Assembly (NCBI GenBank): GCA_031292145.1
Contig: JARLHR010000221.1
Location: 1-46,146, forward strand
DNA: 46,146 bases
Direction: 5' to 3'
Source: Clostridium sp.
GTDB taxonomy: Bacteria > Bacillota > Clostridia > Clostridiales > Clostridiaceae
Shown here: positions 3,042 to 45,079 of the stretch, piece after piece
Numbering within the stretch: the stretch's first letter is position 1
Layout of the letters: every line of letters begins with the position of its first letter
Position numbers and translations under genes: made by a program
The notes under the pieces: model-generated
The model's input: only the letters and a program-made list of their open reading frames with translations
Databases searched by the model: none
What the model was told of the DNA's origin: nothing

Positions 3042-3795
3042 TGGTATCTTCAGCATCTCTAAACATATGTGAAAAGCTCTTGTCATATAATAAGCTTTTT
3101 TCAAAATCACTATCAATAAAATCTCCAACCAAAATTTGAGCACACTTAGTTATATTATTTTCTTTTACCTTTTCTGCTATATCATTTAAATGACCTATTA
3201 TTATTCTTTCATCAGGCCATGTTGCTCTTTCAACTACAGCTATAGGAACATTTTTTTTGTATCCTTTTTTTAATTTATCAATTACTTTATCAATCATAGA
3301 TACAGACAAAAATATTGCCATTGAGGCCCCAATAGATGCCAGCCTCTCTAAATCTTCATTTTCTGGGACAGGAGTTCTGCCTTCCACTCTTGTTAATATA
3401 ACAGTTTGAGATACACCAGGTAAAGTAAATTCTCTATTTATCGCTGCTGCTGCCCCTGTAAAGGAACTAACTCCTGGGACAACCTCATAAGATATACTAA
3501 CCCTATCCAATTCCACCATTTGTTCCCTTATAGCTCCATAAATTGATGGATCACCTGTATGTAATCTTACAACTAACTTTCCCATTTGATCCTCCATTGT
3601 CATAATTTCCATTACATCCTCTAAGGTCATATTTGCAGAGTTATAAATTTGAACATCTGGTCTGCAATATTCTAGGTGTTCCCTAGAAACTAAAGAACCT
3701 GCATATATTACAACATCTGCTCTTTCTAATAAATCACGACCTCTAACAGTTATTAAATCAGCAGCTCCTGGACCTGCACCTATAAAATAAATCAT
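3034..3795 (-). CDS. cbiF: Cobalt-precorrin-4 C11-methyltransferase CbiF
   Basis: SAM-dependent methylation at C11 of the corrin ring (CobM/CbiF family, tetrapyrrole methylase fold). The N-terminal glycine-rich loop YFIGAGPGAADLITVRG, the HTGDPSIYGA motif and GVSSFTGAAA are characteristic. About 253 aa, normal for the family. The frame extends to a TTG at 3816, but GAAAGGGTG sits about 6 nt before the ATG at 3795, giving the family-typical start MIYFIGAG. It follows an unrelated permease-like gene by 28 nt and overlaps cbiG. Confidence 0.95.
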   Translation of the reverse strand: MIYFIGAGPGAADLITVRGRDLLERADVVIYAGSLVSREHLEYCRPDVQIYNSANMTLEDVMEIMTMEDQMGKLVVRLHTGDPSIYGAIREQMVELDRVSISYEVVPGVSSFTGAAAAINREFTLPGVSQTVILTRVEGRTPVPENEDLERLASIGASMAIFLSVSMIDKVIDKLKKGYKKNVPIAVVERATWPDERIIIGHLNDIAEKVKENNITKCAQILVGDFIDSDFEKSLLYDKSFSHMFRDAEDTNE

Positions 3796-30463: not shown

Positions 30464-30930
30464 CTCCTCATATATATTTCTATATGAACGTAATCAACTA
30501 TATTTTACCATAATTATAATCTTTACGAAGTTTTCTTTAGGAAATAGAGAATATAAAACCATTACGCAAATTGCATAGTAGTTTCAACGTGAGGCGTGTG
30601 TTTGAATGGTTTTATTAAATTGTAACTTAGAGCATTTTATTGTATCTAGCTATCATGAAAAATAAATCAAACCTTAGATTAAAAATAACATATTTTACAT
30701 ATTGCATTTTTAAATAATATAACATATCTTGTTGATGGTCGGAAGAAGGGTGGAAATTTTAGTTCTTCCGACCATTTCTTAATTTAAGTGATATCAATAG
30801 TTAACAGAATAATTTATAAATATTATTTTACTTTATTGGGGCCTAGACAATAATTTAATCAGATAACTTGTACCTGAAAATATTTAGAACTCCGAAGTCG
30901 TATTATTACTCATGGGTGCTTGCTAATATG
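30464..30930. other. Intergenic region before the CRISPR array
   Basis: No gene seen. The one clear structure is a perfect 13-bp hairpin, ATGGTCGGAAGAA (30735-30747) / TTCTTCCGACCAT (30763-30775), followed on the plus strand by TTCTTAATTT. It may terminate transcripts or mark an old insertion. Confidence 0.6.
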
Positions 30931-33653
30931 AGAAACATTCCTCTAGTTAAGATAAAACTATACACTTGATTCCTCCTCTTCTTCACTTTTGTTTATTTAC
31001 ATTCCTCTAGTTAAGATAAAACGGATGATCAAGAACATTGTGTTTTAGATTTTACAGCATTTACATTCCTTTAGTTAAGATAAAACTTAACAACCTTTTC
31101 GAGTTCAAGTTCAACATCTTTATTTACATTCCTCTAGTTAAGATAAAACTTATCGATATGAAAATAACTCCACATGTTCTGGTTAGATTTACATTCCTCT
31201 CGTTATGATAAAACCTATTGTATCGAGCAACTTCCACCCTGTAAATGTGAAATTTACATTCCTCTAGTTAAGATAAAACCAAGTGATCTAATGAAAACAG
31301 TATATGACTTTACTAGATTTACATTCCTCTAGTTAAGATAAAACGAGAATCAGAGCTGTTAAACTTTCTTTATGTTTTAAATTTACATTCCTCTAGTTAA
31401 GACAAAACAAGTATTCATCATCTTTTGTAACTTTTCTTGTGCATATTTACATTCCTCTAGTTAAGATAAAACCAATTTGAATTTGTCCTGTCACCGCCTC
31501 TTAACCAATTTACATTCCTCTAGTTAAGATAAAACCATTACGCCATCGCCACTGCAACCTTTTAAGTACTATTTACATTCCTCTAGTTAAGATAAAACGT
31601 ATAGAAAACGGAAATTTCTGAGTAGCTATTTCAAGATTTACATTCCTCTAGTTAAGATAAAACCTTAACAAAATTAGCAGAGGCAAAACTTGAAAAAACA
31701 TTTACATTCCTCTAGTTAAGATAAAACAGGAGAAAACATTCTTCAAATTTGCAAGAAGCTTTAATTTACATTCCTCTAGTTAAGATAAAACTAGAAGGTC
31801 AATTCTTTAACTATAAAGGTGCTGGTGTATTTACATTCCTCTAGTTAAGATAAAACCAAGACCAGGTTAGCATCTATTGAAAGCAATAATGGATTTACAT
31901 TCCTCTAGTTAAGATAAAACGTTCCACCTAACCTTCTAAATAGTCATTTTAAATTGCCTTTACATTCCTCTAGTTAAGATAAAACGTAGATGTATTCGTT
32001 ATTTTGCCTTCATATATTCCTCTTTACATTCCTCTAGTTAAGATAAAACTCCAGGTACCATTGAATATTCTGCTTGATATAATCCCTTTACATTCCTCTA
32101 GTTAAGATAAAACTCATTGAAAAGCTCCTTATAAAAAATACCCACCCGACTTTACATTCCTCTAGTTAAGATAAAACTTATGAGTCCCAACGTGCTTACG
32201 CTGATGGAACTTCCTTTACATTCCTCTAGTTAAGATAAAACGATAGGTAGTTTTATTAATAGTACATTGCCTACTCTCTTTACATTCCTCTAGTTAAGAT
32301 AAAACGTTGTAATCATGTATATGTTTGGTTCTTCGTTGTCGCTTTACATTCCTCTAGTTAAGATAAAACAGTATTCACTGTTTTGTCAGTACCACTATTC
32401 GAAATACCTTTACATTCCTCTAGTTAAGATAAAACGGAATACTTGGTTACGAAAGATTAATGAAAAAAGACTTTACATTCCTCTAGTTAAGATAAAACTA
32501 AAAAATAAGGCATGGTGGATTGCTATTATATCACCTTTACATTCCTCTAGTTAAGATAAAACTTTAATCATAATAAACGACAAATAGGGCAGAATTTTTC
32601 TTTACATTCCTCTAGTTAAGATAAAACTAACAGTAAGTCCAACCATGGGAATAAAAATAGTTTCTTTACATTCCTCTAGTTAAGATAAAACTCGACGGTA
32701 TGTGTAATTTGTCGTATGAAGCTTTAAACTTTACATTCCTCTAGTTAAGATAAAACATTCTTTACCCGCTATATCTTTGAGTTGTGTTTTTGCTTTACAT
32801 TCCTCTAGTTAAGATAAAACCAAGGGGAGCAACATGGTATAACGGAACGTTGATTACCTTTACATTCCTCTAGTTAAGATAAAACCAAAGAGTGCTGTTT
32901 CACGTGAAATGACATATTTCTGCTTTACATTCCTCTAGTTAAGATAAAACATAGGATGGTTTCAATTATCTTCTATATATGCTTACTTTACATTCCTCTA
33001 GTTAAGATAAAACTTTAGATTTTTCTATACAATGAGCTATGTCAATATACTTTACATTCCTCTAGTTAAGATAAAACAGGCTGACATACAAAATAGTAGT
33101 GGTAAATTTTATACTTTACATTCCTCTAGTTAAGATAAAACTGTATGTGTCTTTTCTCTTTATTTAATTTATAAATAACTTTACATTCCTCTAGTTAAGA
33201 TAAAACCTACACTCCACAAACTTACGCTTGCCAGTATGGCTTCTTTACATTCCTCTAGTTAAGATAAAACCTCCTGGTGATTTTTTTATTGGACAGTTTG
33301 ATGATACTTTACATTCCTCTAGTTAAGATAAAACTGTTTTTTATACAAGCACGCTTCGCTTCTATCCTCGCTTTACATTCCTCTAGTTAAGATAAAACTG
33401 AAGAACCAACAGGGTATAGAGCGTATTCAGTAAACTTTACATTCCTCTAGTTAAGATAAAACTAAAGAAGAAAAAAAAGAAGATGATGATATTCATTTCT
33501 TTACATTCCTCTAGTTAAGATAAAACAATTTCATTTGATGATGGTCTTTCAGTTTTAACAATCTTTACATTCCTCTAGTTAAGATAAAACCGTGATACAT
33601 CAATGTATAAAGGTGTAATAAATACCTTTACATTCCTCTAGTTAAGATAAAAC
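30931..33653 (-). CRISPR. Type I-B CRISPR array, 43 repeats / 42 spacers
   Basis: 28-nt repeat; on the minus (transcribed) strand it begins GTTTTATCTTAACTAG and ends GAGGAATGTAAAG. Spacers are about 35-38 nt. Leader and cas2 lie to the right, so the newest unit is at 33626-33653 and the oldest at 30931-30958. The repeats at the old end carry substitutions (30931: three of the last bases changed; 31059: C to T; 31187: two changes; 31381: one change), as expected for leader-distal decay. The last base of the repeat is G in the 27 leader-side copies (31958 onward) and T in the 15 older copies before it (30995-31893). All spacers look unique to me. Confidence 0.98.
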
Positions 33654-33836: not shown

Positions 33837-34100
33837 TTATAAAAATAATTCATCTAGATTCTTTTCTATCCCTATAACTTTCTTTTGTATGTTTTTTGTA
33901 TAAGGAATCCTATAAATGTATAGTGAATCTTCCGAATCCATTAAGTACTTTTTTACTTCTTCTATACATTTTGTTAATTTTCCTTCAGTTATTTCTCCTT
34001 CAAATACTGAATTTTGGCACCATGTTATATATTTTTTTAAGACTTTCCTAACCCTATTTACTCTTTTTTCATTTACATCATAAGTAATTATTACAAACAT
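33837..34100 (-). CDS. cas2: CRISPR-associated protein Cas2
   Basis: 87 aa ferredoxin-fold protein. N-terminal strand MFVIITYDVNEKRVNRVRKV with the conserved Asp (D8), then WCQNSVFEGEI and SLYIYRIPY. With Cas1 it forms the spacer-integration complex. ATG lies 1 nt after the cas1 stop. Last cas gene before the leader and array. Confidence 0.96.
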   Translation of the reverse strand: MFVIITYDVNEKRVNRVRKVLKKYITWCQNSVFEGEITEGKLTKCIEEVKKYLMDSEDSLYIYRIPYTKNIQKKVIGIEKNLDELFL

Positions 34101-34101
34101 A

Positions 34102-35085
34102 TTACCACCAGGCTTTCAAAGGTTTATATTTTTCATCTTTTATTAAATGTTTAATGAGTTTATATGCTTCAAGTTTAATTAATTGTCTATATGATACATT
34201 TCTATTTAATTTCCTGTGTTTAATACTAGTTGACATCTTATTTTCAAATTCCGTTAAAAACTTTTTCTTTCCCTTTTCATTTAAAAAGCATACTCCTTCT
34301 AATGTATCAAAATCGCTATTAGTTAATCTTCTATTATTTATCAATGAAAATATAATACTATCTACTATTAAAGGTTTAAATATTTCTGAAATATCCAAGA
34401 TTAATGAAAATCTTTTGGTTGATGGTTCATGTAAATAACTTATTGTTGGATCAAGCTGTGTTTGATACATTTCACCTAAAATTGCAGTATACATTACTCC
34501 ATTCCCAAATGAAATAAGTGCATTTAAGGGATCTTTAGGCGGTCTTCTATTCCTATGGATAAATCCAAAATCATTTTTAAGCATATACCTAAAACATTCA
34601 TAATACATTTTTCTTACTCTACCTTCTGCTCCCATTAGTTCTTGAATAGTTTTAGAATTCATCATAGTTTCTTTTTCACTTCTTATTTTTTCAAAATATT
34701 CTTTTGGAACTGCTTCATATCTTCTCATATTTCTTAAGATGTGATGAATTGCACTATCTATAAAAGATTTGGCTAAAAATAGCCTCTCATTATTATCTTT
34801 ATAAGCCATAGCCTGCTCAACTATTAAAAATCCAGAAATATTTTTCTTTCTAGGATAATAACTTCCAGAGTAAAATCCATAATAATTATAGAAATTTAAA
34901 ATTATATCATACTGAGAAATGTAATTGATAAATTTACTATTTAAATCAATTTCACTAAAAAAATGAATTCTTTCTATACTTTCAATTGGAATGCCTCTTT
35001 TTTCATCGTCAGCATTAATAAAGTAAATAGTATTATCTTTCCTTTTTATTCTTCCTGGTGAAAAAACATAATAATCTTTTCCCAT
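34102..35085 (-). CDS. cas1: CRISPR-associated endonuclease Cas1 (type I-B)
   Basis: 327 aa integrase of new spacers. The N-terminal beta domain ends near residue 85. Active-site metal ligands are in MGAEGRVRKMYYECF (E154), YLHEPSTKRFSLILD (H219) and ISEIFKP (D231/E234); NALISFGNGVMYTAIL is the family core helix. All are intact, so adaptation should be functional. 2-nt gap from cas4. Confidence 0.97.
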   Translation of the reverse strand: MGKDYYVFSPGRIKRKDNTIYFINADDEKRGIPIESIERIHFFSEIDLNSKFINYISQYDIILNFYNYYGFYSGSYYPRKKNISGFLIVEQAMAYKDNNERLFLAKSFIDSAIHHILRNMRRYEAVPKEYFEKIRSEKETMMNSKTIQELMGAEGRVRKMYYECFRYMLKNDFGFIHRNRRPPKDPLNALISFGNGVMYTAILGEMYQTQLDPTISYLHEPSTKRFSLILDISEIFKPLIVDSIIFSLINNRRLTNSDFDTLEGVCFLNEKGKKKFLTEFENKMSTSIKHRKLNRNVSYRQLIKLEAYKLIKHLIKDEKYKPLKAWW

Positions 35086-35087
35086 CT

Positions 35088-35606
35088 TTACTCTTCCTCC
35101 TCAATATAACAAAATTCATAGTAAGCACACTTTTTGCAAAAAGGTTCATTTATTTTAGAAGGAGGTAACTCTAAATTTTCTATAATTTTAATTTCCTTTA
35201 ATGCTTCTTCTATTTCGATTTTATCTTTATCTTCTAATTCTATCTCTTCAATTCTTCTCTCCTTGACGTAATTAATCTTCCCGTTTCTTTTAATTCCAAG
35301 GACGTTTAAATAGTACAGATAATATAATAACTGCATCCTATCACTTTTTTCCATCTTTGAACTTATCTTTACTTCTCTAACGAAATTTTTGTCAATTATA
35401 TCTAATTTTATATTTCCATCTATCTCTACTTCTTTACTTTTTTCTCTTGTATAGCTATTTTCATGAACTGTTTTTCCTTGCGATACTCTTTCATCATACC
35501 TTTCAAAAGATATACCTTTAGAAAAAAGCCATAACTTTCTTTTACATATGTAGAAATAATTTATCTTAACCCCTTGGGTCTTATAAGCTTCAAAATCAAA
35601 GGACAT
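35088..35606 (-). CDS. cas4: CRISPR-associated exonuclease Cas4
   Basis: 172 aa RecB-like nuclease. GVKINYFYICKRKLWLFSKG holds the first Fe-S Cys; the nuclease core has QGKTVHE, FVREVKISSKMEKSDRMQLL (E-V-K motif and QxxxY helix), and the C-terminal FCKKCAYYEFC gives the remaining Fe-S cysteines. Cas4 sets spacer length and PAM selection with Cas1-Cas2. GGGGG SD before ATG. Confidence 0.96.
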   Translation of the reverse strand: MSFDFEAYKTQGVKINYFYICKRKLWLFSKGISFERYDERVSQGKTVHENSYTREKSKEVEIDGNIKLDIIDKNFVREVKISSKMEKSDRMQLLYYLYYLNVLGIKRNGKINYVKERRIEEIELEDKDKIEIEEALKEIKIIENLELPPSKINEPFCKKCAYYEFCYIEEEE

Positions 35607-35618
35607 AATAATTCCCCC

Positions 35619-37885
35619 TTAAACAAATAAGCATTCTATATCATTTGCATCTTCATTTTTAGGTTTTTGCAAGCCTTTTTCGTCATAAGGAAAGCTAACT
35701 ATTTCTATTTCTTGATACTTTCCTATATCCAATCTCTTAAATATTAATCCCCTCTCAACTGCAAATTCATATTCATATTGTGGTATTGCTACTGTATAAG
35801 CCAAAATGTTATCTCTGCTTTTTATTCTTTCTGAATAGCTGATATTCTCAGATAAATATATATTAAGGTTTTCATTTATAATTTCTAAATTTTTTTCATA
35901 TACTACCTTAGGAATTATAGTTGTAGTAAGAATATCTCTTAACTTGACCTCACTTTTTTGAACTTCAAAACATTTTAAATTATCTATATAATCTATTTTA
36001 GCTTTAACCTCTCTATAAAAATTGCTTTCTCCTAAGTTCTCATAAGTAAAGTATTTATTTATTAAATTCATTTTGTCTATTTCTTTTATTTCTCCATCTC
36101 CAAACTCTTGTATTGCTTTTTTAGATGCAGAATATATCTCATAGTCAATTATTGATCTTTTTGATTTTGTTATACCTGATGGATTCCCAACTCCTCCTGT
36201 ATATATATAAACATTAGTACTATCATCCAGCTCTCTATTTCTATATACTCTCCCCATTCTTTGAAATAATCCCGATACTCTGTATAAAGAACATCAAAAT
36301 CAATATCTAAACTCGCCTCCACAATTTGTGTTGTTATCCAAATTGTTTGAGCTGGATTTTTAGGAATTCCATTAATAACTTCTCCTGCTTTTAATATCTT
36401 CTTTTCAATTTCACTTCTATCCTTCTTAATGTATTTACTATGAAATATATTTATATTAGAAACTTTCTCATTAATTAATTCATCATATAATCTTTGAGCT
36501 TCTTTTACCGTATTAACAATAACCAGAATTCTTTTATTCTCATAATTACTCTTAATATGATTTATATTTATCTTCTCATTTAATACCTTCATTCTATGTC
36601 TTTCAAAAGTATTTCCATTATTATTTTCTTTTAAGAAAGGTTCTTCTGCTTCTTTATAATCTATTCCTAAATACTCCATAAAGCTTTTTAATACAGGCGG
36701 AAACGTAGCTGTGACTATTGCAAATTTTCCTCCCATGTTAGTAATTTCTTTTAATGCTGCTAAAAGATAAGCAAGCATATCTGAGCTATACATTTGTATC
36801 TCGTCTATTACAAGTTTTGAATATGAAAGAGTTGCAAGCTTTAATTCAAAACCTTCACATTTAAAAACAAAATCTAATAGCTGATCTAAAGTGCATACCG
36901 TTAAGGCTTTTGATAATTGCTTCGTTTCATCTAAATGCTCTTTATCTATATCTCCTTCACTTCTCTTCATATATACCGTTGCAGACTCTGAATGCAAAAG
37001 ACCAAGTTTATCATTATTAAATTTTATTTTATCTTTTAATCTATCATAAATTGCATTTAAGGAAACTCTTAATGGAAGCGTAAAGAATCCTTTATTATTT
37101 CCAATCCATAATAATGCTCCTTCTGTTTTCCCAATACCAGTTGATGCAATTGCTATGACGTTATCATCTCTGTTTTCTTTCATAAATTTTTGAAGTTTAT
37201 TAGGTTCAGAATTCATATTATTGAAAAAATCGTGTGTTTTTTCTTCTAATTCATCATTTTTGTATTCTATTGGCACGCCACTTGATGCAGCATAGTCTAT
37301 TTTATTTAGCAACCCTTTTGTCATTATGAACTTTTTATTAGTTAAAATTCTTCTTTCTTCATCATCTTCGCTTTCTTGATCGGGAAGTCTTCTTTTCACA
37401 TACTTCCAGTACTTTGTGTTTAACTCACTTACTTTTCCTATCCTTTCATATGAAAATTCATTTATATATTTTGATAAGTCTTCTTTTATAGTTCTTTTAA
37501 TATTATCTGGATTATCAGGCTTTTCTCTGTTATGGTGATAAAAAATAGATTGGCATAATATCTTTAAATCATCTAGTCCATATTTATCTTGAATGCTTTC
37601 TAAATCTAAAAAGGCTGGACTTAAATAACCATGTGGAATTTCGTTAATATCTTCTAATTCATCTTTAAGATTTGGATAATTTAATTTACTCATAAGCTTA
37701 TTTTGAAATTTAGTATTTAGCTTCCCCATATCATGATATACACATGCTAATTTCAAAAGCTCCCAATCTAGATTTTTGATATCGGGATAATATTTTTTTA
37801 ATAACTTGTAATTTTTTATTAATTCTTCTGTATGACTAATTATAGTTTCTTCATCTTTTGTTTTTGCAAGCGCCTTATTTTCCAT
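35619..37885 (-). pseudogene. cas3: Cas3 helicase-nuclease (I-B), frameshifted
   Basis: The first piece, 36170-37885 (571 codons), has the HD nuclease motif VYHDMGKLN (H51-D52), Walker A STGIGKTE (248-255), DEIQ box (361-364), the TATFPP motif, and IWITTQIVEASLDIDFDVLY. The second piece, 35619-36257 (212 codons), begins MGRVYRNRELDDSTNVYIYT, that is, within helicase motif VI. In the -1 frame just upstream the sequence reads SGLFQRMGRVYRNREL. One lost base near 36270-36282 explains both. As read, the protein ends in 28 foreign residues and lacks motif VI and the C-terminal domain, so target degradation should fail. SD AGGAGG before ATG. Confidence 0.9.
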
Positions 37886-37923: not shown

Positions 37924-39554
<1,631 letters not shown>

Positions 39555-39562
39555 TCCTCTCT

Positions 39563-41242
39563 CTAAGCTTCATTATTTTCTTCATTTTTATTTGGTATTT
39601 CCATTCCTTGAAGTCCTATTAAAAACGCATAACCTATAGTTTGAAATTTATCAGTATCTTGAAGTGCCTGTATAAAATCTACTGGAATCGCTTGTTTCTT
39701 TGAAGTATATGCATTTAATAATGTATCCATAAATCTAGCTTCATTTTTTACCTTTAATGCATTTTGGAGTCTATATAATATACCAGGAATTTTATTTTCT
39801 CCTTCTTTACCATATACCTTTTTTAAATTCATTCCATAATCCTTAAATTTGTCAATATCTTTGTAATACACTTGGCTTCCTCCCCTCATATCCATACAAT
39901 TATTGTTTAATTTTATTAATAAATAGATAACATAAGAATTCTTATATTCACCACTAATTCGTAACCTGGTTAGAGTATCTAATAAATCAAATAAGTTTTT
40001 TCCATTATAAATTCTATCAAGAACAGATGAATATATATTTAAATAATAATCCTTTGCAAGTTTTACTTTTTTGTTTAAAAGCGCCTCTAAAATCTTTTTA
40101 TTATTTTTTATTATTAAAAGCTTGTCCTTAGATAAAACATTAAAAGTATATGGTCTAGAACCATTATTCTTATCAAATTTAACTACTTGTATATTTTCAA
40201 TTTCTATCTTTGCTTCTTCTACAGATTTTTGCTCCATAGAATCAACTATGTTAAAATAAGTTTCTTCTTCTAATTCTTCCAGTGTTTTATCTCTATTTAA
40301 TACATGTGCATTTGCTGATATTATAGCTTTTATTGACTGATTATTATTTATGAATAAACCTTTTCCATTAATAACACTAAATCCAGCTGGTATACATGAA
40401 TAAACTAAATTACAAACAGGACAAATATTTGCATCACTATAGTAATTCCAAAAATGAGATGATTTTCTGTTTCCATCAACACCCATCTTGGTTATCCATG
40501 TAATATCAAATGCAAAGGGTTTTGATAATTTTTGCATTTTATTATCACATGTAAAACATATATTCTTTGATTTTTCTAAATTAGCTTCAATATAGTTATT
40601 AACTGGCTCAGTAAAATCATTTTTATAGCATTTATACATATCAAACTTACTGTTATTTTTATTTAAGAAACTAACGTCAGACCAAAATCCCTGTATTACA
40701 TCATATATTACATTTTTAGCAGCAATTATTTTTCTTACTTCTGGTTTATTTAGAGATTCTATTATTTCCAAAAGCAAATTACATTGCTCTTTAAAGTCAA
40801 AGGCCGTATCACTTATATTTTGAGTCTTTTTCAGCTTAATTTCTTTTAAGTCTGTTGATTTATCTAATAAGCCACACTCATTATCTCCTAATATTTCATA
40901 TGCACTTTTATAACTTGCTGATTTTAATCTTTCTTTTACATATTTAATATAATTATTAAAACGTTCTAACTCTTTTTCAGTTATTTCTTTATCTAATAGA
41001 CCCTTTATCCACTCTTCTTTACTTACTATTTTTTCAATAGATATAAAAGCTTTATACTTTTTTATTAAGTATTCAAAATATAGTTCATGAAAATTTTCTA
41101 ATTCTGAAGAATCAAATTCTATATAATTCTTGTTTTCATTATATTTTTTTCTAAGCTCACTGCTGCTATCAAATATATTTATTAGCCCTACTAAGCCGGC
41201 ATTTTTCATCCAATCAGACAATTCTATTTTTATTACTGACAT
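39563..41242 (-). CDS. cas8b: CRISPR-associated protein Cas8b (Cst1-type large subunit)
   Basis: 559 aa large subunit that recognises the PAM. Low overall conservation, but the position (between cas6 and cas7), the length, and the two Cys pairs CFTCDNKMQKLSK (about 225) and CPVCNLVYSC (about 267), a zinc-ribbon seen in Cst1, support the call. N-terminus IELSDWMKNAGLVGLINIFD is typical. SD GGAGGTG before ATG. Confidence 0.92.
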   Translation of the reverse strand: MSVIKIELSDWMKNAGLVGLINIFDSSSELRKKYNENKNYIEFDSSELENFHELYFEYLIKKYKAFISIEKIVSKEEWIKGLLDKEITEKELERFNNYIKYVKERLKSASYKSAYEILGDNECGLLDKSTDLKEIKLKKTQNISDTAFDFKEQCNLLLEIIESLNKPEVRKIIAAKNVIYDVIQGFWSDVSFLNKNNSKFDMYKCYKNDFTEPVNNYIEANLEKSKNICFTCDNKMQKLSKPFAFDITWITKMGVDGNRKSSHFWNYYSDANICPVCNLVYSCIPAGFSVINGKGLFINNNQSIKAIISANAHVLNRDKTLEELEEETYFNIVDSMEQKSVEEAKIEIENIQVVKFDKNNGSRPYTFNVLSKDKLLIIKNNKKILEALLNKKVKLAKDYYLNIYSSVLDRIYNGKNLFDLLDTLTRLRISGEYKNSYVIYLLIKLNNNCMDMRGGSQVYYKDIDKFKDYGMNLKKVYGKEGENKIPGILYRLQNALKVKNEARFMDTLLNAYTSKKQAIPVDFIQALQDTDKFQTIGYAFLIGLQGMEIPNKNEENNEA

Positions 41243-41321: not shown

Positions 41322-42053
41322 TTAAACTATTTCTAGACAGCCTCCTCCTGATGAACGTCTTACACCAAGGCCCATCTTATAAATCAGGCTGAGATCTTCT
41401 TTATCTCCTGTTAGCTTAAATATCCCTTCATAACCTGTGATATAATATATCTCTTTCCCTGTCTTCTCTGTGAATTCTGATATTTTTTCTTTTATTACCC
41501 TCTTTTTCATAAGAACAGGTTCAAATTTTAATTCTTGTTTTAAACCATTACCTCTGTAAGATTCAATAACCTTATCAGTTATATAATTTAATTCTTTTTC
41601 ATAATTTAAGTCTTCTATTTTTAAAAATTCTCCTAATTTATTCTTAAGAATAATTGGGGATAAAGTTTTAAAAACAACTTGGTTAGAATTTATATTTTTT
41701 TCTTTTAGAACACTTACTTTTCCGATTTGAAGCTTGTACTTGTTTTGATATTCATAAGATTTTTCTTTAAGAAAGCAATTATATATAACACTTCCAAATA
41801 TGTAGTCACTAGTTGAAATTGTTAATAATGCATGTCTTTCAAGTGTAACCTCATCATCTTTAATTTGAAAATTTTCAAGCTTAACTGAAAAAGTAAAAGG
41901 CTTTGTCCTAAATTCATAATCTTCATTGTCTCCATATAACTTTTGGAATAACATAGGATTTTCTTTTGAAAGATTATTTTTTATTAGACTTAAAATTAAA
42001 TAATTATAGTTTAATGGCAATCTAGTTGTATTAAGCTCTATACAAATTCTCAT
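41322..42053 (-). CDS. cas6: CRISPR pre-crRNA endonuclease Cas6
   Basis: Cuts pre-crRNA inside the repeats. 243 aa from ATG 42053. N-terminal RAMP fold RICIELNTTRLPLNYNYLIL; C-terminal glycine-rich loop MGLGVRRSSGGGCLEIV. ATG 42062 (MINMRIC) sits 3 nt after AAAGGAGGG, ATG 42053 12 nt after; either is possible. It is the first gene of the cas operon, directly behind the promoter at 42084-42112. Confidence 0.94.
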   Translation of the reverse strand: MRICIELNTTRLPLNYNYLILSLIKNNLSKENPMLFQKLYGDNEDYEFRTKPFTFSVKLENFQIKDDEVTLERHALLTISTSDYIFGSVIYNCFLKEKSYEYQNKYKLQIGKVSVLKEKNINSNQVVFKTLSPIILKNKLGEFLKIEDLNYEKELNYITDKVIESYRGNGLKQELKFEPVLMKKRVIKEKISEFTEKTGKEIYYITGYEGIFKLTGDKEDLSLIYKMGLGVRRSSGGGCLEIV

Positions 42054-42083
42054 ATTTATCATATCCCTCCTTTTATTGGTATT

Positions 42084-42112
42084 ATTATAACTCTTATCCA
42101 AATATTAATCAA
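42084..42112 (-). promoter_or_regulatory. cas operon promoter
   Basis: Minus strand: TTGATT (42107-42112), 17-bp spacer, TATAAT (42084-42089), start point near 42077, then AAAGGAGGG and the cas6 ATG. Short leader, strong -10. Confidence 0.85.
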
Positions 42113-42133
42113 CCTATATATTATTGAAAAATA
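42113..42133 (+). promoter_or_regulatory. Predicted Cascade target site next to the cas -35
   Basis: Plus strand: CCT (42113-42115, PAM-like) then ATATATTATTG (42116-42126) and AAAAATA. Positions 1-11 equal the spacer of the mini-CRISPR at 43279-43308; position 12 differs; 13-18 match; later positions do not. The PAM abuts the -35 hexamer of the cas promoter. Confidence 0.7.
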
Positions 42134-42149
42134 AAACATTACCTCTGCT

Positions 42150-42206: not shown

Positions 42207-43169
42207 TTAGGACTTAATTTGTCCACAATTAAAATTTCCCAAAATTTTTTCCACTTTTTCTTTAATCTCTATTCGTAAAGATTCTGGTGATACAACCTTA
42301 ACGCAATCAGACATACTTAATATCCATGAAATCACTTCAGGTCCCTTCTTTATTCTCGCTTTATAAATTATTTTTCCATCATTTTTCTCAATTATTTCTT
42401 GATTATCTACCCATATTCTCTCTTTAATAGTATTTGCCATTGGAGGCGTTATTTCTAATTCTAAATCAATTTCTTTTCCGTTATATATTCCTATATTATT
42501 TTCTTCTTGCTCCTTTAAAAATTCATCTATATCTATGTTTCGTTCAAATATAAATCCAGTTATTATGTACTCTTTAATTCTCGTTAATTTAAAATATCTT
42601 ATTTCATTCCTTAATAAGCATGTAGAAACTAAATAATATTCACCTCTAAATAATAAAAGTTTATGTGGCTGTACCTTTCTTCTTGAACAGTTTCCATGAT
42701 TATCACAATATTCAAGAATAATTTCATTTCTATTTTCAATAGCTGATGATATTTTATTATATATTTTTGTTATCTCCTCCAATTTTAACTTTGGCTTTGA
42801 ATAGTGTATTACTTCTTCATTATGTAAATAATTCTTTTCATTCTTTAAGATTCTTAAATTTAGTTTATCTACTATTTCCATTAACTCTGAAGAATTTTCA
42901 TAATTTAACGAATTAATTAAAAACTTTAGCTTACTAATCTCATTTTCTGTTAATACATCCTTAAAAGGAAAATAATCATCAATTAATGTATATCCTCCAT
43001 CTGATCCCGTAATTGATTCAATATTAAAATATTTATCAATTTCATTTTTATATCTTCTGACTTGTCTTTCACTTACATCAAGCTCATCTGCTAAAGATTT
43101 TATTTTCACCTTCTTCTTTGTTTTTAGTATAAAAATCATTTTCAATATATTTCCTAACCCATCCATCAT
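42207..43169 (-). CDS. WYL-domain transcriptional regulator
   Basis: 320 aa. N-terminal winged HTH: KKKVKIKSLADELDVSERQV then RRYKNEIDKYFNI (about residues 18-50). The WYL domain runs from about 140 to 225 (EIILEYCDNHGNCSRRKVQP, HKLLLFRGEYYLVSTCLL, RNEIRYFKLTRIKEY), followed by a WCX-type C-terminal extension (KARIKKGPEVISWILSMSDC). WYL regulators commonly sit in CRISPR and other defence loci and respond to nucleic-acid or nucleotide ligands. It is placed between the mini-CRISPR unit and the cas promoter. ATG with AAAGGGG upstream. Confidence 0.9.
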   Translation of the reverse strand: MMDGLGNILKMIFILKTKKKVKIKSLADELDVSERQVRRYKNEIDKYFNIESITGSDGGYTLIDDYFPFKDVLTENEISKLKFLINSLNYENSSELMEIVDKLNLRILKNEKNYLHNEEVIHYSKPKLKLEEITKIYNKISSAIENRNEIILEYCDNHGNCSRRKVQPHKLLLFRGEYYLVSTCLLRNEIRYFKLTRIKEYIITGFIFERNIDIDEFLKEQEENNIGIYNGKEIDLELEITPPMANTIKERIWVDNQEIIEKNDGKIIYKARIKKGPEVISWILSMSDCVKVVSPESLRIEIKEKVEKILGNFNCGQIKS

Positions 43170-43227: not shown

Positions 43228-43332
43228 CATATAAAAATAAGCCACCTAAAAGGTGACTTCCACTAGTTAAGATAAATAAATCATTATCGATATTTTACAA
43301 TAATATATTTTTACATTCTGCTAATTAATATA
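43228..43332 (-). ncRNA. Mini-CRISPR / crRNA-like regulatory RNA (CreR/CreA-like)
   Basis: About 105 nt. Degenerate repeat 1 (43309-43336) matches the array repeat at 20 of 28 positions and keeps the crRNA handle end GAATGTAAA. A 30-nt spacer follows (43279-43308), starting ATATATTATTG. Degenerate repeat 2 (43251-43278) keeps a 14-nt perfect run TTTATCTTAACTAG. Its 3' part becomes an intrinsic terminator (43239-43259). A good promoter lies just upstream with its start point inside repeat 1. The spacer seed matches the cas promoter (42116). No ORF. By design it should be processed by Cas6 and loaded into Cascade. Confidence 0.72.
43239..43259 (-). terminator. Terminator of the mini-CRISPR RNA
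   Basis: Minus strand AAGTCACCT-TTT-AGGTGGCTT folds into 9 bp (one G-U), followed by ATTTTTATAT. The plus-strand copy would have a C-A mismatch, so it is built for the minus direction. Confidence 0.8.
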
Positions 43333-43338
43333 TATTTT

Positions 43339-43367
43339 ATTATACATAAATGTATTTATGCCTTCAA
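43339..43367 (-). promoter_or_regulatory. Promoter of the mini-CRISPR RNA
   Basis: Minus strand: TTGAAG (43362-43367), 17-bp spacer, TATAAT (43339-43344). The predicted start point near 43332 falls at the beginning of degenerate repeat 1. Confidence 0.75.
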
Positions 43368-43453: not shown

Positions 43454-44344
43454 CTAAATTTCTACCCAACTTCCACTTCCATCAACACTCCAACCGTCAG
43501 GAGTAACACAATCACAGTACATCTTTCCTTTCTCATCAAAAGCATAGCAACAACTGTCTATCCACTTCCACAAAGGCTTTTCCTTGCTTCCTCTAATCAT
43601 CTTACAATTATAATCCAAATAATACCATGCATTATTGTTTTCATCATGATACCAGCAATCCTGAAGGGCATATCCATTACAATCAAATATATACCACTCT
43701 CCATCAATCTCCTGCCATCCATTTTGTGATGTATAATAATATCTATTTTCTAGGTTTGTACAAAACCACCATCCAACATCATTCTGATTCCATCCATGCA
43801 CCCATTCTCCATCACTAGCTCCAACTAATCCACTAACAATAGCTCTTGCAATAACTTCTGGATCATACACATTGGCATCATCACTATCAGCAAATAAACA
43901 TTCAACTAGTATTGCTGGCATAACAGTTTTATTAAGAACAATAAGACTTCTTGTTTTTACACCTCTGTTCGGTAAATTCAAAGCATTTGATAATGAAGTT
44001 GTTACTTTAGCTGCATATTCATTTGCTACCTCTGATTTTCCGGTAACACAAACCTCTGTCCCGGTTCCTCCCCCTGCATTAATATGAATTTCCATATACA
44101 GTTCCACATCTAATGTTTTTGCTATTTCATTAGCTTCATCTGCTCTTTCATAACAGTCTTCGCAGTCATAACTATTACTTTTATCAATTCTTAATAAATC
44201 AACTTCATAACCTTTTTCCTTCAAATACTGTGAAACTAAAACACCAATCTGACGTGTGCAATTACTCTCATCTAACCTAGCAATAACCCCACATCCAACA
44301 TTACCACTTGCAGTATGACCTACAGCTATTATAAAATTACTCAT
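43454..44344 (-). CDS. N-acetylmuramoyl-L-alanine amidase with wall-binding repeats
   Basis: 296 aa. Amidase_3 catalytic domain (1-175): zinc ligands in IIAVGHTASGNVGCG (His), a mid-domain Glu near DEANEIA, MEIHINAGGGTGTEV (His), and AILVECLFADSDDANV (catalytic Glu). The C-terminal part (about 185-296) has aromatic repeats such as VGWWFCTNLENRYYYT, GEWYIFDCNGYA and NAWYYLDYN, like choline/wall-binding repeats, and ends with a Cys- and Trp-rich segment. No signal peptide, as in phage or tailocin endolysins that exit through a holin. ATG 44344 has GAGAGG 9 nt upstream; the upstream ATG at 44362 includes that SD. Confidence 0.92.
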   Translation of the reverse strand: MSNFIIAVGHTASGNVGCGVIARLDESNCTRQIGVLVSQYLKEKGYEVDLLRIDKSNSYDCEDCYERADEANEIAKTLDVELYMEIHINAGGGTGTEVCVTGKSEVANEYAAKVTTSLSNALNLPNRGVKTRSLIVLNKTVMPAILVECLFADSDDANVYDPEVIARAIVSGLVGASDGEWVHGWNQNDVGWWFCTNLENRYYYTSQNGWQEIDGEWYIFDCNGYALQDCWYHDENNNAWYYLDYNCKMIRGSKEKPLWKWIDSCCYAFDEKGKMYCDCVTPDGWSVDGSGSWVEI

Positions 44345-44506
44345 TCTACACTTCCTCTCCATAATCTTTAATTTTTTATATTTACAACTAAGTTATATGT
44401 ATTTTAACCATATATACTATATATAGAGATAAATTTAACATCAAACACAATATATGTAAATTAATCACTTTTATTTATGACTCTTATATTTAAAATGGAG
44501 GTTTAT

Positions 44507-45079
44507 ATGGATTTTAATTATATTGAAGCTTTAGTAACCAGATGTAAAAATAATGATGAAGAAGCAAAAGAAAAATTGGCTATAGAATTTAGGCCATTAA
44601 TTTACAATATTTCTAAAAGAACTTTCATTGATGGATACAATAGCTACGATATTATCCAAGAATGTTATCATTCACTTTTTAAATCTGTTTCCATGTACAA
44701 TTTAGAAAAACATAGATTTGTTGCCTATGCTACTAATGCTATTAAAAATAATATGAATGATTTAATCAAAAGAACCAAAACTAGAAGGTCTACTGAAGGT
44801 AGTGATGCATTAAGCTTACATGATGATGTTGAAAATAATTTTCCTGAACTTGAAATCTCAACAGAAACTTCATTATGTGAAATGTGTGACTATGAAGATT
44901 TAAAATTAGCTCTTAAGAATTTAAATGAAGAGGAACTTGAGCTTATAAATTTTGTATTCTATAGAAATTACACTGTAAAGGAATATGCTTATTTAAAAAA
45001 TATGTGCTACTCAACTGCTATTCTAAAAAAGAAAACTATTTTAATGAAAATCCATAATAATATTTCATTGTATTATTAG
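44507..45079 (+). CDS. Small sigma-70-family factor
   Basis: 190 aa from ATG 44507 (GGAGG 5 nt upstream; the open frame reaches 44477). Region 2: GYNSYDIIQECYHSLFKSVS, MYNLEKHRFVAYATNAIKNN. Region 4: a helical pair LNEEELELINFVFYRNYTVK then EYAYLKNMCYSTAILKKKTI. An acidic linker (SLHDDVENNFPELEIST) joins them. Size and sequence fit alternative/phage-type sigma factors such as the TcdR/BotR/UviA group, which control toxin, bacteriocin or lysis genes. Divergent from the amidase; possible target genes are the amidase and the gene at 45750. Confidence 0.85.
   Translation: MDFNYIEALVTRCKNNDEEAKEKLAIEFRPLIYNISKRTFIDGYNSYDIIQECYHSLFKSVSMYNLEKHRFVAYATNAIKNNMNDLIKRTKTRRSTEGSDALSLHDDVENNFPELEISTETSLCEMCDYEDLKLALKNLNEEELELINFVFYRNYTVKEYAYLKNMCYSTAILKKKTILMKIHNNISLYY

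Follow-up and report, generated by a model that had tools for sequence, protein, structure and literature searches.

A candidate creR mini-array beside a clostridial type I-B cas operon and the fit of its guide to the cas promoter across related loci

What is the role of a one-spacer mini-CRISPR that stands apart from the main array, one gene away from a type I-B cas operon? From sequence comparison, we consider it probable (about 0.87) that this mini-array is a creR gene whose RNA would repress its own cas operon through Cascade. The window (i.e. the whole stretch of 46,146 nucleotides that was analysed) is one contig of a 6.34-Mb genome in 282 contigs that is 95.85% complete. NCBIfam family matches identified a type I-B operon in the order cas6-cas8b(Cst1)-cas7(Cst2)-cas5-cas3-cas4-cas1-cas2 on the minus strand, with a canonical array of about 40 repeats and spacers of mostly 35–37 nt downstream of it (Table 1). 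The cas3 gene is frameshifted in the helicase part, with residues 1–534 and 532–754 of the G017 protein matching different frames and a stretch round the break that is, by eye, ~10 nt shorter than in G017. The break may reflect a genuine frameshift or an error in the assembly. No other cas3 in the assembled genome exceeds the family cut-off and, given the frameshift, this copy of the system may be under relaxed selection.

Table 1. Positions in the window of the mini-array, its target and the neighbouring CRISPR-Cas features.
Feature	Coordinates	Strand	Evidence or remark
Canonical CRISPR array, repeat GTTTTATCTTAACTAGAGGAATGTAAAT	30930..33653	-	repeat search
cas4, cas1, cas2	33837..35606	-	family matches
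cas3, two frames (36170-37885, 35619-36257)	35619..37885	-	family match and frame comparison
cas5	37924..38661	-	TIGR01895 just below its cut-off; TIGR02593 over cut-off
cas7 (Cst2)	38667..39554	-	TIGR02585
cas8b (Cst1)	39563..41242	-	TIGR01908
cas6	41322..42101	-	ORF, TIGR01877; by eye, translation probably starts near 42053, after GGAGGG
cas operon promoter TTGATT-17-TATAAT	42084..42112	-	-35 at 42112-42107
PAM CCT of the candidate creR target	42113..42115	+	adjoins -35 of cas promoter
Protospacer in cas promoter region	42116..42145	+	paired part 42116-42133
HTH_11-WYL-WCX regulator gene between candidate creR and cas6	42207..43169	-	Pfam WYL 1.2e-14, WCX 2e-11
Intrinsic terminator	43231..43259	-	hairpin fused to R2 end, stem 43259-43239, then T-tract
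Degenerate repeat R2	43251..43278	-	20/28 vs array repeat, 14-nt perfect run
Mini-array spacer, 30 nt	43279..43308	-	positions 1-18 = guide to cas promoter, 17/18
Degenerate repeat R1	43309..43336	-	20/28 vs array repeat; last 10 nt 9/10 = crRNA 5' handle
Mini-array promoter TTGAAG-17-TATAAT	43339..43367	-	read on sequence; -10 ends 2 nt before R1

The mini-array occupies 43231-43367 of the minus strand and consists, in order, of a promoter, a degenerate repeat (R1), a 30-nt spacer, a second degenerate repeat (R2) and a terminator. All of these elements had been claimed by the original prediction, and every coordinate agreed with the sequence. Absent from that prediction were the WYL gene that separates the mini-array from cas6 and the cas3 frameshift. 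Apart from the array itself, nothing in the window resembles the repeat as closely as R1 and R2, the next best place reaching 18/28, and the pair, 58 nt apart, scored above 60 of 60 shuffles (z 7.8). Conservation of R2 against the array repeat is 83% over the first 18 nt and 50% over the last 10 nt. The terminator hairpin has a folding energy of -11.4 kcal/mol (z -3.6) and, together with the consensus promoter, predicts a separate transcription unit. The mini-array differs from a canonical immune array in having repeats that match at 20/28 positions and a spacer of 30 nt, as against mostly 35–37 nt in the array. A search of Rfam for an identity gave a sole match up to E 1, to isrD, which was rejected at 16.7 bits against the 37 needed.

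The guide agrees with the plus strand from 42116 at positions 1–11 and 13–18 and mismatches at position 12 and at all of positions 19–28. The seed match, both sets of mismatches and a CCT abutting the -35 box, as originally described, can all be read on the sequence. That this arrangement was unlikely by chance, a further part of that description, was borne out by a genome-wide search with CCN plus guide positions 1–11 and 13–17: in 6.34 Mb there was one exact match, at the cas promoter, none at one mismatch and six at two mismatches, one of which was the mini-array itself.

Related loci were collected from two sources. A search for cas7 (TIGR02585) in 225 genomes of the order found the gene in 49 genomes at 51 places, giving 50 loci with the window among them (the second G093 copy falls inside L103). 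A profile of six Cas7 proteins was also run against one genome per species (84,980 species), and the best 80 of 227 relatives were kept. From the 130 pooled loci we dropped 7 named duplicates of survey genomes, 26 without a detectable array and 5 short of upstream sequence, leaving 92 that were tested; a further 11 were dropped for a canonical array upstream, so that 81 were counted. In each locus, repeat-like sites with a handle were located and the next 17 nt were compared with the sequence lying 7.5–1 kb upstream of cas7. The main scoring left positions 6 and 12 free (i.e. 15 informative positions) and did not impose a PAM. Requiring at least 8/9 of the handle gave 83 sites in 52 of the 81 loci. 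As a control, each of the 83 spacers was tried on the other 80 loci (6640 pairs) with positions 1–17 scored alike, a comparison that is conservative because related species are among the controls.

Guides fitted the region upstream of their own cas operons far more often than swapped loci predict. At a score of at least 13/15, there were 30 matches, comprising 21 with CCN (in 20 loci), two with TC and seven with other PAMs, as compared to expectations of 0.27 for CCN and 12.1 for non-CCN (seen: 21 and 9). Raising the score to at least 14/15 left 20 matches, of which 18 had CCN and two TCA, with no other PAM. The excess persisted with positions 1–17 scored alike, where 20 CCN matches in 19 loci reached at least 14/17 against 0.42 expected and 16 reached at least 15/17 against 0.05 expected. 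Without CCN there was no excess at this level (at least 14/17: 20 seen vs 17.7 expected from swapped loci). CCN matches of only 13/17 (e.g. L100 and a second one in L098) are near chance, the totals for at least 13/17 being 25 seen and 2.98 expected, and with looser handles (at least 6/9) non-CCN matches outnumbered CCN matches, most of them being runs of N. The original prediction had named covariation of seed and promoter as a check; when this was run across related species, those with a mini-array of this kind differed in seed and in promoter, yet each seed fitted its own locus. Together with the CCN PAM and the positions of the mismatches, this excess supports the CreR-like reading put forward at the outset.

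Mismatches were unevenly spread along the guide. Among the 25 CCN matches scoring 13/17 or more, the numbers at positions 1–17 were 0, 0, 2, 1, 0, 12, 0, 1, 1, 1, 3, 14, 0, 3, 4, 5 and 10, i.e. peaks of 12, 14 and 10 at positions 6, 12 and 17 with 0–5 elsewhere. The peaks at 6 and 12 coincide with bases left unpaired by type I Cascade, in keeping with the initial description of position 12 as flipped out. A position-6 mismatch had no effect on binding in the T. maritima type I-B system, and the I-B PAM is given as YCN for C. difficile and as CCN for P. furiosus (PMC13199841). Beyond the guide, agreement per position in 19 matches of at least 14/17 was 11–42% at positions 18–30, with at most 21/30 in total.

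The 20 loci comprise the window, G017, G001, G035, G166, G165 (Clostridium sp. ZS2-4), G187 (Clostridium paridis), G197, G189, Sporolactobacillus sp. THM19-2, Rummeliibacillus suwonensis, a Clostridiaceae MAG (L147), Tissierella creatinophila, Peptoniphilus stercorisuis, P. asaccharolyticus, P. indolicus, Clostridiales DTU070, Faecalicatena contorta, Listeria grandensis and a Lachnospiraceae MAG (L206); L209 (Clostridiaceae BRH_c20a) lies just below the cut. No mini-array/promoter pair was found at the chosen cut-offs in the remaining 61 of the 81 counted loci, which indicates that the system can do without the mini-array. In L086, L118 and L125, repeat pairs scored above the shuffles and had no CCN match at the counted cut-offs; those in L086 and L118 may be chance. 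In G203 (L091), three degenerate repeats with two spacers form a mini-array that lies ~3.9 kb upstream of cas7. No CCN target was detected for it in the 4.5-kb region searched, there was no genome-wide match within two mismatches except its own spacer, and the second spacer had no target in the upstream region. Two matches with a TCA PAM, of 15/15 in L123 (G175) and 14/15 in L128 (G147), lie upstream of cas7 in loci with a different repeat type (GTTGAACC...). These were left uncounted; they fit the YCN PAM of C. difficile and are possible creR units.

The position of the targets was examined for the 20 loci and L209, with cas6 in the relatives presumed from position and N-terminal sequence rather than from a family search. 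The gene directly behind the target was this presumed cas6 in 17 of the 21 loci, the other four being a WYL gene (G166 and G165), a 128-aa gene before cas6 (G197) and a 72-aa ORF before cas6 (L. grandensis). With promoters assigned by consensus only, several loci, among them the window, G001, G035, P. asaccharolyticus and P. indolicus, have a 17-nt match that stops immediately short of the -35 box, and in others, such as G017 and T. creatinophila, it lies over or just behind the -10 box. In G189 (L117), the guide match is 16/17 with a CCT PAM and, at oriented positions 3660-3735, the target covers a TATAAT just upstream of the mini-array, with cas6 behind the mini-array, so that one promoter may serve both. 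The mini-array of G165 (L094) also has a second target, with a CCA PAM (oriented 2194), before an 84-aa DUF4351 remnant, which is not a cas gene.

The build of the unit was compared over 20 mini-arrays, i.e. 19 of those above plus L209, without G189. A -10 box (at least 5/6) accompanied by a -35 box ended 1–7 nt before R1 in 14; for the remaining six the -10 box was inside R1 in two, 11–12 nt before it in two and not found in two. An exact TATAAT at 1–7 nt before R1 was present in 8/20 against 0.7 expected from shuffles, and a -10 box matching at 5/6 or more positions in 15/20 against 6.4 expected, half of the weak-box excess being chance. With the -10 box ending just before R1, the RNA would start at or in R1. 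Conservation of R1 across mini-arrays had a mean of 96% over the last 10 nt, a value inflated because sites were chosen by the handle, and 59% over the rest. R2 was conserved at 72% in its front part and 54% in the last 10 nt, and R1 was often better kept than R2; these values come from an ungapped fit, with R1 or R2 misplaced in some loci such as G001, whose mini-array carries an indel. The better-kept pieces of R1 and R2 are those retained on a mature crRNA. For H. hispanica, the last 8 nt of the repeat are described as the handle and the first 12 nt as needed for a stable complex (PMC9458426).

From these features we infer a course of transcription, processing, loading, repression and relief. 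A short RNA would run from at or inside R1 to the terminator in R2, and Cas6 or simple trimming would turn it into a crRNA-like RNA comprising the R1 handle, the spacer and the front of R2. Loaded into I-B Cascade, this RNA would direct the complex to the cas promoter, with CCT as PAM and pairing over about 17 bases. Complementarity of this length would prevent cleavage, and as pairing ends after position 18 the R-loop is probably too short for Cas3 to be licensed. Bound Cascade would cover the -35 side and lower transcription of cas6-cas8b-cas7-cas5-cas3-cas4-cas1-cas2. Repression would ease once Cascade is occupied by crRNAs from the array or blocked by anti-CRISPR proteins, a relief model that comes from the CreR literature (PMC12737573).

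CreR (cas-regulating RNA) was reportedly described by Liu et al. in 2023 in Cell Host Microbe for types I-B, I-E and V-A. The novelty of the present unit is lower than first thought because CreR is a published kind. CreR is a mini-CRISPR RNA with a guide partly complementary to its own cas promoter that acts through Cascade or Cas12a and is reported for type I and V-A systems (PMC12737573, PMC12948488). The window unit resembles this description in having repeats cognate to the neighbouring CRISPR and a guide fitting its own cas promoter at 17/18 with CCT, and also in the shortness of the complementarity. It differs in lying one gene from cas and before a WYL gene and in its host (Bacillota, Clostridium group). 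Among the publications listed, judged by title or the opening of the abstract and mostly outside subscription papers, none dealt with CreR in Clostridium or other Bacillota. CreA of the haloarchaeal I-B CreTA module shares ectopic degenerate repeats (one or two), partial promoter complementarity and action via Cascade; it differs in that the window target is cas rather than a toxin RNA, no toxin target having been seen, and in that its R1 is more diverged than R2 while both match at 20/28 in the window and R1 is often better kept in relatives (PMC9458426). The RNA anti-CRISPRs (Racr) are likewise repeat-like RNAs outside arrays but are virus-encoded solitary repeats, whereas the window unit lies beside a cas operon with a guide that fits the cas promoter (PMC10651486). 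A phage RNA anti-CRISPR was set aside on this location and guide fit.

Several other explanations were weighed against autorepression. The mini-array could be a functionless leftover of an old array whose spacer came by accident from the cas promoter, an idea that the degenerate repeats, the unmatched 3' half of the spacer and the frameshifted cas3 all favour. Decay would not, however, keep a -10 box before R1 at a frequency so far above the shuffles, a terminator and a handle, nor does it sit well with a CCN match whose mismatches fall at unread bases and which recurs in many species, or with a spacer shorter than the canonical ones; we regard a decayed remnant as improbable. Even less probable is a shared operator at which the spacer and the cas promoter both bind the neighbouring WYL regulator. 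The WYL gene does sit between the two sites, and TCTGCTAATTA occurs at both (42144 and 43317, plus strand), but the match starts precisely where repeat meets spacer and leaves out positions 6 and 12, CCN is present at the target and absent at the array, and such matches recur with unrelated sequences and in loci whose mini-array adjoins no WYL gene.

Two further readings are very improbable, each to a similar degree. The first makes the RNA a CreA antitoxin of a CreTA/CrePA module that represses a toxin gene. The anatomy of two degenerate repeats with partial complementarity is indeed creA-like (PMC9458426); yet a guide to a neighbouring toxin promoter, the mark of CreTA, was not found, the sole exact genomic target being the cas promoter, and presumed cas6 follows the target directly in most loci. 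The other is a leader attenuator of the WYL gene, in which cleavage of R2 and the terminator by Cas6 would control how much transcription reads through into the regulator gene. The terminator lies ~60 nt before the WYL gene start on the same strand, and mini-arrays stand directly before a WYL gene also in G017, G187, G166 and G165; against this, 9 of the 20 mini-arrays are directed away from the cas operon, several lack a WYL gene downstream, and the promoter match would be left unexplained.

Within autorepression by a creR gene, the loci with a WYL gene invite a more tentative, and on balance doubtful, extension, i.e. that Clostridium-like creR genes before a WYL gene re-aim in evolution, that RNA and protein regulation form one circuit and that Cascade in the window is mainly an RNA-guided repressor. 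G017 and the window have mini-arrays at an equal place before the WYL gene with targets in different parts of the cas6 promoter, which suggests re-fitting and not mere common descent. Under such re-aiming, the guides of the window, G017 and G187 would fit the cas6 promoter beyond the regulator, those of G166 and G165 the promoter region belonging to the regulator or to an operon of regulator and cas genes, and that of G189 a promoter upstream of the mini-array itself. In G165, only 84 nt separate the WYL gene from cas6, so cas may be transcribed from the WYL promoter in that locus. In the window strain, with its sole over-cut-off cas3 frameshifted, Cascade could persist mainly as an RNA-guided repressor.

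The combination of a CCN PAM, pairing over ~17 bases with positions 6 and 12 free, a -10 box immediately ahead of R1 and a kept R1 handle provides a sequence signature for finding cas autorepression in genomes without experiments. The survey suggests that about a quarter of the I-B loci examined (20/81), in several Bacillota groups, carry this signature. Such candidate units are relevant to the use of endogenous I-B systems as editing tools and to understanding responses to anti-CRISPRs, and the RNA switch may be linked to a WYL regulator.

Additional features were noted around the WYL gene and the mini-array. A WYL gene 51% identical to that of the window is found in L034 (G009), near an array with a very different repeat, and GAAATGTAAAT occurs upstream of it. 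Upstream of the mini-array in the window, 43454-44362 (minus strand) encodes an Amidase_3 protein with a choline-binding-type repeat and 44477-45079 (plus strand) a small protein with sigma-70 region 2.
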